Positions 11,149 through 15,898 of a stretch of 64,000 nucleotides of DNA are shown here, piece by piece. Positions within the stretch are counted from its first letter, which is position 1; each line of letters starts with the position of its first letter. A program made the position numbers and the translations under genes. The notes under the pieces are model-generated. The model did not search any database, had not been told where the DNA came from, and saw only the letters and a list, made by a program, of their open reading frames with translations. This stretch comes from Natronobacterium texcoconense (lineage in GTDB: Archaea; Halobacteriota; Halobacteria; Halobacteriales; Natrialbaceae), in the NCBI RefSeq assembly GCF_900104065.1, contig NZ_FNLC01000002.1:106995-170994 (forward strand), given 5' to 3'.

Positions 11149-12333
11149 TCAGTGAACCGAAATCGCGCCCCCGGAGCGATCCGAGACGGCGACGGCGGCC
11201 AGGTAGATGAGAATCGCGACGACGATGATCGAGCCACCGGAGGGGAGACTCTGACTCAGCGCGAACGCGTAGCCGCCGAGAATCGACAGCTGTCCGAACA
11301 GGATCGAGAGGTACAGCGTCTCCCGGAAACTGCGCGCGATCTGCGAGGCGGCCGCGACTGGGATCACGAGCATGCCGGCGACGAGGATGACGCCAAGTAC
11401 CTGCATCGCGCCGACGACGACGACCGCGGTCATCACGATGAGCAGCGTGTTGTACGCCGAAACGTTGAGCTGGGCGACGCGGGCCGCCTGCTCGTCGAAG
11501 GTGATGAAAAGCAGCTGTTTGTACGTGGCGGCGACGACGGCGACGACGCCGACGGTCAGCATAGCCATCAGTCGCGATCCGCTCGCCGACACGACCGACA
11601 GGCTCCCGAAGAGAAACTCCTCGATGTCGACACCGATCGACATGAAGTCACGTCCCCAGCTTATCAGCAGCGTTCCGACGGCGAAACTCCCGGTGAGCAT
11701 GATCGCGATCGGTACGTCGCCGAAGGAGTTCGTCCGTTCGGTCAGCCACTGGACCGCGAGCGCCCCGATCACGCTGACGAGAAGGGCAATGTACAGCAAC
11801 GACCCCTGCCAGCCGGTCACGGCGATAAACAGCAGGCCGACCGCGACGCCCGCGAACGCGGTGTGGGCGAGCGTCTCACCGATCAGCGCCATCTGTCTGT
11901 GGACGAGGTAGGTTCCGACCAGCGGTGCGACGACGCCGATCAACACCCCGGTCGCGAGGTTTCGCCACATGAACGCGTACTGGAAGAGTTCGATCCCGAG
12001 GAAGTGATCGAGCCACATGCCGGCGATCAGGAACTGCTCCAGCAGGTAGCCGGCCGCTGGATCGATTCCGGTCGCCGTATACATCGTCTCGAGCGCCCCG
12101 AACGACTCCGACCCCGGGTACCGGCGGAGCCAGTCGAGGGCGATAAAGCCGATCATCGCAGCTGCGAGCAGACCGACGAGGACGACGCCGACGAGTTCGA
12201 TCCCTCGTCGGAGGTCTGTCGGCCTCGAGTAGCCACTCGAGTCGCCGTACGTGACGGTCCCACCGTCGACTGCTGGCGTCTCTCCGTGGTCGTGCTGGTG
12301 ATCGTCGCCGTCGTAGTTGTCCTTCCCGGTCAT
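11149..12333 (-). CDS. znuB: Zinc-type metal ABC transporter permease
   Basis: A 394-residue integral membrane protein of the ABC-3 (ZnuB/MntB) family starting at MTGKDNYDGDDHQHDHG (ATG 12331-12333). The His/Asp-rich N-terminal ~30 residues could bind metal. About nine hydrophobic segments follow, including the conserved RQMALIGETLAHTAFAGVAVG region. The last membrane segments (GGSIIVVAILIYLAAVAVS) complete the permease. It begins 3 bases after the ATPase stop and is the last gene of the importer operon. Zinc is preferred over manganese because of the His-rich neighbours; this is inference. Confidence 0.9.
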   Translation of the reverse strand: MTGKDNYDGDDHQHDHGETPAVDGGTVTYGDSSGYSRPTDLRRGIELVGVVLVGLLAAAMIGFIALDWLRRYPGSESFGALETMYTATGIDPAAGYLLEQFLIAGMWLDHFLGIELFQYAFMWRNLATGVLIGVVAPLVGTYLVHRQMALIGETLAHTAFAGVAVGLLFIAVTGWQGSLLYIALLVSVIGALAVQWLTERTNSFGDVPIAIMLTGSFAVGTLLISWGRDFMSIGVDIEEFLFGSLSVVSASGSRLMAMLTVGVVAVVAATYKQLLFITFDEQAARVAQLNVSAYNTLLIVMTAVVVVGAMQVLGVILVAGMLVIPVAAASQIARSFRETLYLSILFGQLSILGGYAFALSQSLPSGGSIIVVAILIYLAAVAVSDRSGGAISVH

Positions 12334-12335
12334 CG

Positions 12336-13076
12336 TCAGTGGTGATGGTGGACGATCTCGCCCGTCTTGCCGTAGGCCTCGCTCAGAGCGTCGCTCTCGA
12401 CGAACGACTCCGTGTCGCCGTGGTGGTACAGTTCCGTGTTGATACACGCGATCCGGTTTGCCCGGTCGGTGACGACGCCGATGTCGTGTTCGATCAGGAT
12501 GATCGTGATCCCCGATCGGTTCAGCGACTCGAGCAACCGGTAGAACTCGTCGCGGGATTCGGCGTCGACGCCGACGGTCGGTTCGTCGAGCGCGAGCAGG
12601 TCGGCCTCGGACGCGATCGCACGCGCGATGTAGGCTCGCTGGCGCTGGCCGCCCGAGAGCTGGTTCATCTGCTGGTCGGCGATATCCGCGATGTCGACCG
12701 TCTCGAGGGCGTCTTCTGCGATTTTTCGGTCTTCGTCGCTCAGTCGGCCGTGGCCGACGTGGGCGAACCGTCCCATGAGGACACACTCACGAACGGTGAC
12801 GGGCATCGTCCCGCCGCGGTCGGTCGCCTTCTGGGAGACGTAGCCGATCCGTTCGCCGGCCTCGAACTCCTCGATCGGCTGGTCGAACAGTCGGACGGAA
12901 CCCCTGTCGGGCGAGAGCAGTCCGAGCATGACGTGCAACAGCGTCGTCTTCCCGGAGCCGTTCGGTCCGATGAGACCGAGGAAATCGCCCTTTTCGACGG
13001 TAAGACTCACGTTCTCGAGTGCGAGCGAGTCCCCGTAGGCGAACGAGACGTTCCGAACGTCGACGACCGATTTCAC
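12336..13076 (-). CDS. znuC: Zinc-type metal ABC transporter ATP-binding protein
   Basis: A 246-residue ABC ATPase with Walker A GPNGSGKTTL (~37-46), Q-loop YVSQK, signature LSGGQRQRA, Walker B ADLLALDEPT and switch His in LIEHD. The C-terminus ends in HHHH (TGEIVHHHH), matching the His-rich theme of the whole operon. It lies between the receptor gene (54-bp gap) and the permease (2-bp gap) and supplies energy for metal uptake. Confidence 0.93.
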   Translation of the reverse strand: MKSVVDVRNVSFAYGDSLALENVSLTVEKGDFLGLIGPNGSGKTTLLHVMLGLLSPDRGSVRLFDQPIEEFEAGERIGYVSQKATDRGGTMPVTVRECVLMGRFAHVGHGRLSDEDRKIAEDALETVDIADIADQQMNQLSGGQRQRAYIARAIASEADLLALDEPTVGVDAESRDEFYRLLESLNRSGITIILIEHDIGVVTDRANRIACINTELYHHGDTESFVESDALSEAYGKTGEIVHHHH

Positions 13077-13130: not shown

Positions 13131-14522
13131 TTACTCCGCGCCCAGGGCTTGCCGAAGCGAGGGGATGGTGACCTCTTCCATCTGTTCGACCCAGCCCCAC
13201 CCCTGCTCGCTCCACTCCGCCGTCGTCCCCTCGGCAGGCGTGACCGGCGCGTACTCTTCGGCGTCGGTGTTCTCGAGCAGCAACTCGACCATCCGTGGGA
13301 CGTCCTCGTCGGGGTCGGGCGTCTCGAAGGGATCGTAGAGGATCGTGTCGATGTCGTGCTTCTCGACGACCGAGATCGACTCGGAGATGTCGGATTCGGT
13401 TTCGGCGGCGTCCGGCGAGATGCCGACCGGCGTGTGTATCTCGAAGTCGTACCGCTCCTCGATGTACTGGAACGAGTCGTGACCCGCGAGGACCGCTACG
13501 TCGCGTTCTGCGTCCGCTGCGAGTTGCTCGAACTGCTCGTGGACCTCCGCGAGTCGGTCGGCGTAGGCGGCGGCGTTGTCCTCGTAGAGTTCGGCGTTGT
13601 CAGGATCCGCCTCGCCGAGTCCGTCGGCGATCGTTTCGACCATCCGCTGGGCCAGTACGGGGTCGGCCCAGACGTGTGGGTCGTAGAAGTCAGGTGCGGT
13701 GTCGTCCGGCAGTTCCTCGACGACCTCCGCAGTCATGTTGTCGGCGCTCGTATCCCAGAGGACCTCGCCGTCGGCGACGAGTTCGAAGACGATCCTGGTA
13801 CGACCGACGTCGTTGCCGTGGAAAACGACGCGGTCACCCTCGGATTCGATTTCGAGGACGTCCTCGTTTGCACCGTCGACGATCCGGGCGTCGAACTGGA
13901 ACTGTTCGGCTTCTCCCAGCGGCAGGACGCGTCCCTCGTCGTCCTCGAAGACACCCTCGACGGCAGCGGAGCCGCCGATCGGAACGAGCGGCAGGTCGCC
14001 GTGCCAGTGGTCGCCGTGCCAGTATGCAGTCTCGTCGCCGGTCTGTCCGTCGTAGACGTCGAAACCGCTGATCGTCACCGCGTCGGGATCGAAGTCGTCG
14101 CCGGACGGCTCGCGGTCGTCTTCGACGTCCCGGTCGAGCGGGAGCAACTGGTTCTCGAGGCCGTCCATCGCGTCGATCAGCATCGTATCGACGTCTTCGT
14201 CCGCAATTTCGCCCGCGACGTTCTGGGCCCAGGAGAACTCGGCCGTATCCAGATAGACGAAGACGTCCGAGCCGGCGACGTTGCGCTGGAGGTCGGCCGG
14301 CGGCTCCCAGCCGTGTCCCATCTCACCGACGTCGACCGGGTTCGTGACTTCCATCTCGTCGCCGACGATTTCGTCCGTCCAGTCCCAGAGGGCGAAGAAC
14401 GCGGCGTACCCCTCTTGCTCTCCCGAATCCCCATCGCCGCCGGGTTCGCTCAGACAGCCGGCGGCCCCGACCGCGAGCGCACCGGCACTCGAGCCGAGTA
14501 GCGAACGGCGTGATAGCTTCAT
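13131..14522 (-). CDS. znuA: Zinc ABC transporter substrate-binding lipoprotein with inserted HGDHWH module
   Basis: A 463-residue protein from the ATG 14520-14522. It has a Tat signal and lipobox (KLSRRSLLG ... VGAAGCLS, Cys23). The cluster A-I receptor fold has candidate zinc ligands His70 (GEMGHGWEP), His283 (YDPHVWADP) and His348 (LAGHDSF). Where bacterial ZnuA has a disordered His-rich loop, this protein has a ~120-residue domain (149-268) with the motif YWHGDHWHGDLP. That domain matches the two repeats of the upstream lipoprotein at 14700-15623. The protein should sit on the outer face of the membrane and feed the permease. Metal choice (zinc) is inference. Confidence 0.9.
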   Translation of the reverse strand: MKLSRRSLLGSSAGALAVGAAGCLSEPGGDGDSGEQEGYAAFFALWDWTDEIVGDEMEVTNPVDVGEMGHGWEPPADLQRNVAGSDVFVYLDTAEFSWAQNVAGEIADEDVDTMLIDAMDGLENQLLPLDRDVEDDREPSGDDFDPDAVTISGFDVYDGQTGDETAYWHGDHWHGDLPLVPIGGSAAVEGVFEDDEGRVLPLGEAEQFQFDARIVDGANEDVLEIESEGDRVVFHGNDVGRTRIVFELVADGEVLWDTSADNMTAEVVEELPDDTAPDFYDPHVWADPVLAQRMVETIADGLGEADPDNAELYEDNAAAYADRLAEVHEQFEQLAADAERDVAVLAGHDSFQYIEERYDFEIHTPVGISPDAAETESDISESISVVEKHDIDTILYDPFETPDPDEDVPRMVELLLENTDAEEYAPVTPAEGTTAEWSEQGWGWVEQMEEVTIPSLRQALGAE

Positions 14523-14565
14523 ATATGGCAATACGCGGTGGAGGTTAAAAGTATTATTATCTGTG

Positions 14566-14585
14566 CCAGTTTGGTTAATAACTGG
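14566..14585. promoter_or_regulatory. Inverted repeat upstream of znuA promoter
   Basis: CCAGTT-8 bases-AACTGG forms a perfect 6-bp dyad. It lies just upstream of an AT-rich TATA-like stretch (AATAATACTTTTAAC on the minus strand, 14545-14560) that precedes the znuA start at 14522. The position suits a metalloregulator operator. No known consensus is recognised. Confidence 0.4.
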
Positions 14586-14699
14586 TGTCACTCTCCCGGC
14601 TCGAGTTAGTAATCGACACGCGTGGCTGGAACACACGTTCGAAAACGAAACAGTCGGGTTACGTCGGTATACCGAGCGAAAACCGGACAGGCGTGCCGA

Positions 14700-15623
14700 T
14701 CAGTGGTCTTCGACTTCGATCTCGATCGGTGGACTCTCCCAGTCGGCGTGGTCGTCGTGCCAGAGCTTGAAGACGACTTCCGTCTCGCCCTCGGACTCGC
14801 CGTAGATGTGGACGTGGTCGCCGTGCCAGTGCTCGTCGGAATCGATCTCGACGATTTCGTCCGCTGCGTCGTCGGCGACCGAGACGGCGAGTTCGTACTC
14901 CTCGTCGCTGCCGATCGGGATTTCGTCGCCGTGATCGTCAGTAAACACCGCGCCCAGCGAAATGTTGTCGTCGACGTGGACGTGTGGTAGTTCGCCGTGC
15001 CAGTGATCGCCGTGGATGTCCGCGACGACTTCGTCGTCCGACCGATCGATGATCTCGAGATCCTCGACCTCAACGTGGCCGTGGCCGTCGTCGTCGTGAT
15101 CGTGATGGCCAACCTCCGTCTCGAGTTCTGGCGTCTCGTAGACGACGTCGCCGTCCTCGACGAGCTGGAAGACGACGTCCGTGAAGCCGTCCTCCTCACC
15201 GTGGACGTGGACGTGATCGCCGTGGGATTCGATCTCGACGACCTCGTTTGCGCCCTCAACGACCTCGCCGGTCAGTTCGAGACCGTCGCCGAGTTCGACC
15301 TCGTCGCCGTCCTCGTCCTCGATGTAGGCACCGAGCGAGAGGTTGTCGTCGTGTGGGACCTCGAGCGGATCGTCGTGCCAGTGGTCGCCGTGGACGTAGA
15401 CGAGAACCTCCTCGTCGTGGTCGCGGTCGAGGATCTCGAACTCTTCGACGCCGATCTCGTCGTGGCCGTCGTCGTGATCGTGATCGTCGTGGTCGTCGTG
15501 ATCGTCGCCCTCGTCATCGCCGCCGTTCTCGTCGCCGAGACAGCCAGCGAGACCGAGTGCTGTCGCCGATCCGGTCGCCGCGAGCAGTTTTCGGCGGGAC
15601 GTGGAACGTGGAACGTCAGTCAT
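14700..15623 (-). CDS. His/Asp-rich metal-binding lipoprotein with two HGDHWH repeats
   Basis: A 307-residue protein from the ATG 15621-15623. It has a Tat/lipoprotein signal (RRKLLAATGSA ... LGLAGCLG, Cys28). A His/Asp stretch (residues 40-56) is followed by two homologous repeats, ~58-170 and ~184-304. Each contains HGDHWH, a SLGA(Y/V) strand with acidic turns, a VVEIES- or IVEIDS-type segment followed by HGDHVH(V/I), and a VVF(Q/K)L strand. The same module is inserted in the ZnuA-like receptor 177 bp downstream. It likely captures zinc outside the cell and hands it to the importer, by analogy with bacterial ZinT/AdcA systems; I see no sequence relation to ZinT. Confidence 0.85.
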   Translation of the reverse strand: MTDVPRSTSRRKLLAATGSATALGLAGCLGDENGGDDEGDDHDDHDDHDHDDGHDEIGVEEFEILDRDHDEEVLVYVHGDHWHDDPLEVPHDDNLSLGAYIEDEDGDEVELGDGLELTGEVVEGANEVVEIESHGDHVHVHGEEDGFTDVVFQLVEDGDVVYETPELETEVGHHDHDDDGHGHVEVEDLEIIDRSDDEVVADIHGDHWHGELPHVHVDDNISLGAVFTDDHGDEIPIGSDEEYELAVSVADDAADEIVEIDSDEHWHGDHVHIYGESEGETEVVFKLWHDDHADWESPPIEIEVEDH

Positions 15624-15630
15624 CTGTAAT

Positions 15631-15645
15631 CCTCCGTTGCGGAGG
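15631..15645 (-). promoter_or_regulatory. Hairpin covering the ribosome binding site of the His-rich lipoprotein gene
   Basis: The sequence CCTCCGTTGCGGAGG is a perfect 6-bp stem with a 3-base loop. On the transcribed strand its 3' arm contains GGAGG, seven bases upstream of the ATG at 15623, so the stem would hide the Shine-Dalgarno sequence. An AT-rich promoter-like stretch (TTAATAATATCG on the minus strand) lies ~20 bp further upstream. Confidence 0.5.
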
Positions 15646-15898
15646 GTTACTAATGAACCTAACGATATTATTAACAAGGGTTAAGTCGTGGTTGTCCATT
15701 GCCAATAGCAGTCAGGGAGTCTGTTTTTCTTATTATCGATCGACGGACGAGCAATTCTGTCGAGCGACGGACCGAGAATTATCCCGCCTCGAACAAACCC
15801 AAGATCAAGTCGCCGCCATACGGATTACTGGAAGCCATTTTCGATGCAACCGCGACCCAGCCTGCGGTTGCACCGGTACATCGTTACAGCAATCCGTC

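Follow-up and report, generated by a model that had tools for sequence, protein, structure and literature searches.

The window (the whole stretch of 64,000 nucleotides that was analysed) is haloarchaeal. On its minus strand lie, in this order, genes for a lipoprotein, a ZnuA-family receptor, an ABC ATPase and an ABC-3 permease. The features of this region are as follows.

14700..15623, minus strand: free tandem-module lipoprotein, 307 residues, with a Tat-like SRRK sequence and a lipobox AGC at residue 26-28, both read from the translation
15462..15506, minus strand: Asp/His-rich linker from the lipid anchor to module 1 (DDHDDHDDHDHDDGH)
15111..15455, minus strand: module copy 1, residues ~57-171, with HGDHWH at 15375-15392 and HGDHVH at 15207-15224 (AlphaFold2, pLDDT ~92)
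14709..15074, minus strand: module copy 2, residues ~184-305, with HGDHWH at 14997-15014, HGDHVH at 14808-14825 and WHDDH at 14748-14762 (AlphaFold2)
14547..14582, minus strand: conserved promoter-side element GTTATTAAC-N13-ATAATAA-TA-CTTTT before the receptor gene, with close variants in many haloarchaeal relatives
13131..14522, minus strand: ZnuA-family receptor lipoprotein, 463 residues
14301..14318, minus strand: His70 (GHGWEP), predicted core metal ligand by alignment to YcdH and AdcA
13719..14078, minus strand: module insert in the ZnuA loop, residues 149-268, with HGDHWH at 14001-14018 and a decayed second motif, EGDRVV, at 13824-13841
13668..13682, minus strand: His283 (DPHVW), predicted core metal ligand by alignment, in the first conserved core element past the insert
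13470..13484, minus strand: His348 (GHDSF), predicted core metal ligand by alignment to YcdH and AdcA
12336..13076, minus strand: AztA-like ABC ATPase, with a conserved HHHH tail at 12339-12350
11149..12333, minus strand: AztB-like ABC-3 permease

A preliminary description had reported two repeats of about 115 residues in the lipoprotein, and BLASTP bears this out: the two copies are 48% identical (E=4e-27), copy 2 having the third element WHDDH and copy 1 lacking it. The lipoprotein has four occurrences of the motif HGDHxH, and 5000 shuffles gave none; the more general HxxHxH is found five times there and once in the receptor. The genome contains no further copy of the module beyond these two and the one in the receptor.

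Residues 40-408 of the receptor match the Pfam ZnuA family (PF01297; E=4.1e-43, 148 bits against a cut-off of 29). Solved ZnuA relatives cover residues 33-114 and resume at about 280, and the insert, which is 39% and 32% identical to the two free copies (E=9e-20 and 4e-19, BLASTP), falls between the two halves of the match. It therefore does occupy the loop position assigned to it in the preliminary description. One of the motifs that it was said to share, HGDHWH, is present; another, HGDHVH, is not, and reads EGDRVV. The AlphaFold2 model of the receptor (pLDDT 87.5, pTM 0.83) has AdcA as its top Foldseek match (7e-16, target TM 0.85), with YcdH and AztC also found. His70, His283 and His348 align to YcdH and AdcA and correspond to a three-histidine core of the zinc type, their role as ligands being taken from the family; His283 and His348 are invariant in the alignment of receptors. 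The same core pattern apparently occurs in a second, module-free receptor of this genome, as read by eye. This belongs to a second ZnuABC system (G000:C4, 194646-195365), which is free of the module, stands beside a metalloregulator-like gene, and likely serves another metal.

The best metal-transporter models for the ATPase, permease and receptor are AztA, AztB and AztC respectively, all scoring below the cut-offs of the NCBIfam equivalogs (183 against 220, 140 against 280 and 85 against 350 bits). No operon protein matches AztD, which is a β-propeller, in Pfam or NCBIfam. The HHHH noted earlier at the end of the ATPase is a conserved tail, which ends 13 of 21 strong ATPase matches and is kept in most module-bearing haloarchaeal operons; this suggests a cytoplasmic metal-sensing or inhibitory tail. 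The His-rich start noted for the permease is present here, but is otherwise seen at only one other locus (L065) and is thus not a conserved feature.

The element GTTATTAAC-N13-ATAATAA-TA-CTTTT has one occurrence in the whole genome. Since it is found only before the receptor gene it names no wider regulon, and it is a candidate for an operator plus promoter. The AT-rich elements at 14547-14582 and 15640-15675 share a TTANTAAC-like half-site, and stand before the receptor and free-lipoprotein genes across relatives.

Fold and histidine sites of the module

A profile search of the module copies and structure prediction, both proposed in the preliminary description, were run. AlphaFold2, with alignments built from the window and the fetched loci only, predicts the tandem protein as a confident 11-strand β-sandwich (pLDDT 92). 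The free and inserted modules have identical sets of 11 strands, with order and lengths alike in both models, in agreement with the earlier suggestion of one coherent folded β module used both free and within the receptor. Foldseek gave 107 PDB matches to the tandem protein at E<=0.001, and among those listed Ig-like S-layer, filamin and adhesin domains lead; the TM of the whole model is low because it contains two domains. The best match in a profile search of PDB sequences is the S-layer protein SbsC (4uid), which is weak (E=0.025) and agrees with the Ig-like result from Foldseek. The models thus point to an Ig-like β-sandwich domain, nearest to S-layer and filamin domains among the matches listed and unlike ZinT, Pht or AztD.

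No Pfam or NCBIfam family matched the module. For ZinT in particular there was no match in either library and none among the fold matches listed, and HGDHWH appears in none of the papers searched. A PB1 domain was considered (E=0.016 with the whole protein, 0.0016 with one module) and rejected, being below the cut-off and in conflict with the fold. The module is undescribed and in none of the libraries used, whereas the kind of system, an extracellular capture protein feeding an ABC receptor, is already known.

The histidines form two sites: site I is HxxHWH, and site II is HGDHVH, often with a later HDDH. H-x-x-H-W is invariant in all 67 distinct loop copies, and 61 of them retain the third histidine as well. 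Site II (HxxHxH) is intact in only 16 of these 67, compared to 77 of 103 free or C-terminal copies (Fisher p=9e-11, the rows not being independent). The receptor loop thus specifically retains site I. Several free copies from bacteria show the opposite pattern, site II being kept and site I lost. The two triads are therefore separable.

Architectures and distribution

In the class to which the window belongs, the module profile has matches in 71 of 391 genomes (E<=1e-4), and in a wider sample of the phylum in 15 of 295 (1e-6). A scan of 84,980 species genomes yielded 54 loci. Their archaeal sources are Halobacteria, Thermoplasmata and Methanocalculus, and their bacterial sources, which represent at least six phyla, are Bacillota (Syntrophomonadaceae, Tindallia), Izimaplasma/Mollicutes, Nitriliruptoria, Myxococcota, Gemmatimonadota and Ignavibacteriota. 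The original observation is real and consistent, and wider than could be seen from one stretch of DNA.

The number and position of modules is not identical in all these proteins. Free module proteins have one to four copies. In ZnuA receptors one or two modules stand in the loop, at the C-terminus, or in both places; Thermoplasmata relatives have C-terminal modules. A Nitriliruptoria locus (L088) encodes a fusion of the module with AztD, the zinc metallochaperone (NF038015, E=5.7e-28; PDB 6cmk, 2.4e-25). The genes next to it are those of an ATPase and a permease, of a receptor resembling AztC (2.4e-87) and of a further protein, which has tandem modules. All six Bacillota loci have the gene for a module lipoprotein between those for the CbiO ATPase and CbiM of a cobalt ECF transporter, and CbiQ was confirmed in each of the five of these that were scanned. 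The AztD fusion, the cobalt ECF operons and the ZnuA receptors together tie the module to metal uptake, in line with the metal theme first noted for the operon. As relatives are built into the metal-uptake systems of unrelated archaea and bacteria, the module looks like a portable metal-capture part. Some module genes, in Myxococcota, have no transporter visible nearby.

A tree of the modules, made by a quick method from a short alignment with the motif columns left out, implies that the module entered the ZnuA loop on at least three separate occasions (Halobacteria, Thermoplasmata and Izimaplasma), on strongly supported branches.

Among the named loci, single-insert receptors have a free-module neighbour in 17 of 17 cases and multi-module receptors in 0 of 8. 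This apparent complementarity is an ascertainment bias, and is undone by the loci from the class search, which were chosen regardless of any free gene: many of their single-insert receptors have no free-module gene within about 4 kb. The free protein, and with it a two-protein relay, is therefore not obligatory everywhere.

Several unusual architectures were also seen. In two soda-lake Thermoplasmata loci (L074:3020-4735 and L075:2687-4360) the ZnuA reads as circularly permuted, the order being membrane anchor, C-terminal half, N-terminal half and two modules, while L077, L089 and L093 have the normal order. Four haloarchaeal surface proteins of 935-1055 residues (L143:2407-5307, L152:3799-6603, L153:3223-6138 and L082:3134-6298) have two or three modules each; in L143 a gene for a module-bearing receptor lies some 1.8 kb downstream. 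Module receptors of a second and more divergent class (L130, L133, L142, L157 and L161) have a permease gene before or after them and no ATPase detected alongside, with site II intact in most. Two Bacillota module proteins (L083:2255-3163 and L098:3830-4777) are extended at the C-terminus by a His-rich stretch to which no NCBIfam name applies.

The species distribution is strongly linked to soda lakes. Kulunda soda-lake metagenomes supply 37 of the 54 named loci, compared to at most 2.2% of the collection, a figure based on the 871 and 1032 genomes deposited by two Kulunda studies. The haloarchaeal isolates matched (Natrialba, Natronorubrum, Natrarchaeobius, Natronolimnohabitans, Natronobiforma, Salinadaptatus halalkaliphilus, Halorubrum vacuolatum and Halobiforma nitratireducens) are ones that we take to be haloalkaliphiles. 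One matched genome, Ods04, appears from its label to come from Odiel saltmarsh soils (cf. PMC12942990), so that the link, though strong, is not an exclusive one; these data do not separate salinity from alkalinity. It is quite conceivable, and is suggested here tentatively, that the module is a new, laterally spread soda-lake domain, an Ig-like fold with a double histidine triad, which unrelated lineages recruited independently (into the ZnuA loop, the ZnuA C-terminus, AztD and cobalt ECF operons) against metal starvation at high pH and carbonate.

Proposed role and alternatives

Transfer of zinc from a capture protein to a receptor has been described in other systems. AztC needs its loop, and the histidines of that loop, for zinc transfer from AztD, and ZinT has been modelled docking with the ZnuA loop (PMC6689063). 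In vitro, AdcAII receives zinc from PhtD, which bears HxxHxH triads (PMC3842936).

We propose that the Ig-like histidine-triad module probably captures divalent transition metal extracellularly and offers it to the importer; metal binding, zinc as the metal and direct transfer are what we infer. The lipid-anchored tandem protein would be an external metal collector. The loop copy, with site I only, may replace the flexible loop as a docking or relay element beside the core metal site, and by analogy its triad would take over the role of the loop histidines next to His70, His283 and His348. Import would follow through the ABC ATPase and permease. The three-histidine core and the resemblance to Azt proteins make zinc the most probable metal for this operon, but the cobalt ECF contexts imply that the module family as such is not specific for zinc.

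A different specificity has to be considered, in which the operon imports Mn, Co, Ni or Fe and the module is a general catcher of divalent metals. The position of the Bacillota lipoproteins would fit this, as would the response of Halobacterium ABC-3 systems to Mn via SirR (PMC3600143). It is nevertheless rather unlikely for this operon: the core of the receptor has three histidines as in zinc-type receptors, the best transporter models are AztA, AztB and AztC, AztD itself is fused to a module elsewhere, and it is the other paralogue of this genome that adjoins a metalloregulator-like gene.

The module could also be a metal buffer or a sensor-like gate rather than part of a relay, the loop copy sensing or buffering excess metal and regulating the opening of the receptor or transporter, and the free lipoprotein being a sponge that protects the surface. 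We regard this as unlikely, given that the genes adjoin importers (ZnuABC-type, CbiMQO, AztD) and are concentrated in soda-lake genomes, a setting in which free metal should be scarce and not in excess, even though the His/Asp-rich linkers of the lipoprotein and the conserved cytoplasmic HHHH tail of the ATPase fit buffering or inhibition.

It is improbable that the module is a structural or halophile-adaptation domain, an acidic spacer or S-layer contact in which the histidines are secondary. The nearest folds among those listed are indeed S-layer Ig-like domains, and the members are acidic and come from halophiles, but the invariance of H-x-x-H-W in the 67 loop copies, despite divergence elsewhere, speaks against such a role, and so does the recurrence of the association with metal importers across unrelated lineages. 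That the module belongs in divergent form to the streptococcal histidine triad (Pht) family, which has the same HxxHxH motif in a multi-triad surface protein paired with a ZnuA-type receptor (PMC3842936), is very improbable, in that PF04270 is touched by only 2 of 51 modules with no significant score (best E=0.057), Pht is absent from the profile search of PDB sequences and from the 50 fold matches listed, and an 11-strand Ig-like sandwich is predicted in place of the short three-stranded Pht units.

The proposed capture and relay can be compared with known systems. In PhtD/AdcAII a multi-copy surface protein with HxxHxH is also encoded beside a ZnuA-type receptor (PMC3842936), but there is no significant sequence match, the predicted fold is different, and here the module is also inside the receptor. 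AdcA (ZnuA with a C-terminal ZinT) similarly has a capture domain fused to a ZnuA-type receptor, and the module of Thermoplasmata relatives is also C-terminal; however, the module has no sequence match to ZinT and ZinT is not among the fold matches listed, and the copy in the window is in the loop. The preliminary description had likened the logic to ZinT and AdcA with a different sequence. The difference in sequence holds, but the closest analogue by motif is the streptococcal triad of PhtD/AdcAII. The resemblance to PhtD/AdcAII and to AdcA is functional, and homology is not supported. The AztABCD system of Paracoccus denitrificans is like the operon in AztA, AztB and AztC, in the donation of zinc by AztD via the AztC loop (PMC6689063), and in the Nitriliruptoria fusion of the module to AztD; it differs in that AztD is absent here and the scores fall below the curated cut-offs. 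In ZnuABC of the E. coli type, the loop that runs from the first core histidine to the second is the counterpart of the insertion site; there it is a flexible His-rich stretch and here a folded Ig-like domain. CbiM(N)QO cobalt ECF transporters have extracytoplasmic accessory proteins, and in Bacillota relatives of the module sit between CbiO and CbiM, but no such gene is in the window operon.

To our knowledge, extracellular capture proteins that feed ABC receptors take three unrelated forms (ZinT, Pht and AztD), all bacterial, and we know of no earlier capture domain folded into the receptor loop itself. If the proposal is true, the module is a fourth form, found in archaea and bacteria. Because zinc-type ABC importers and cobalt ECF importers are both connected to this one part, the relay from capture domain to transporter could be tested with it in a modular way. 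It may also explain how soda-lake life obtains zinc and cobalt in water whose carbonate content and pH should leave very little metal free.

It is worth adding that in an Ignavibacteria locus (L115:1495-3864) the gene for a module lipoprotein follows that for a TonB-dependent receptor, a possible partner in the outer membrane.
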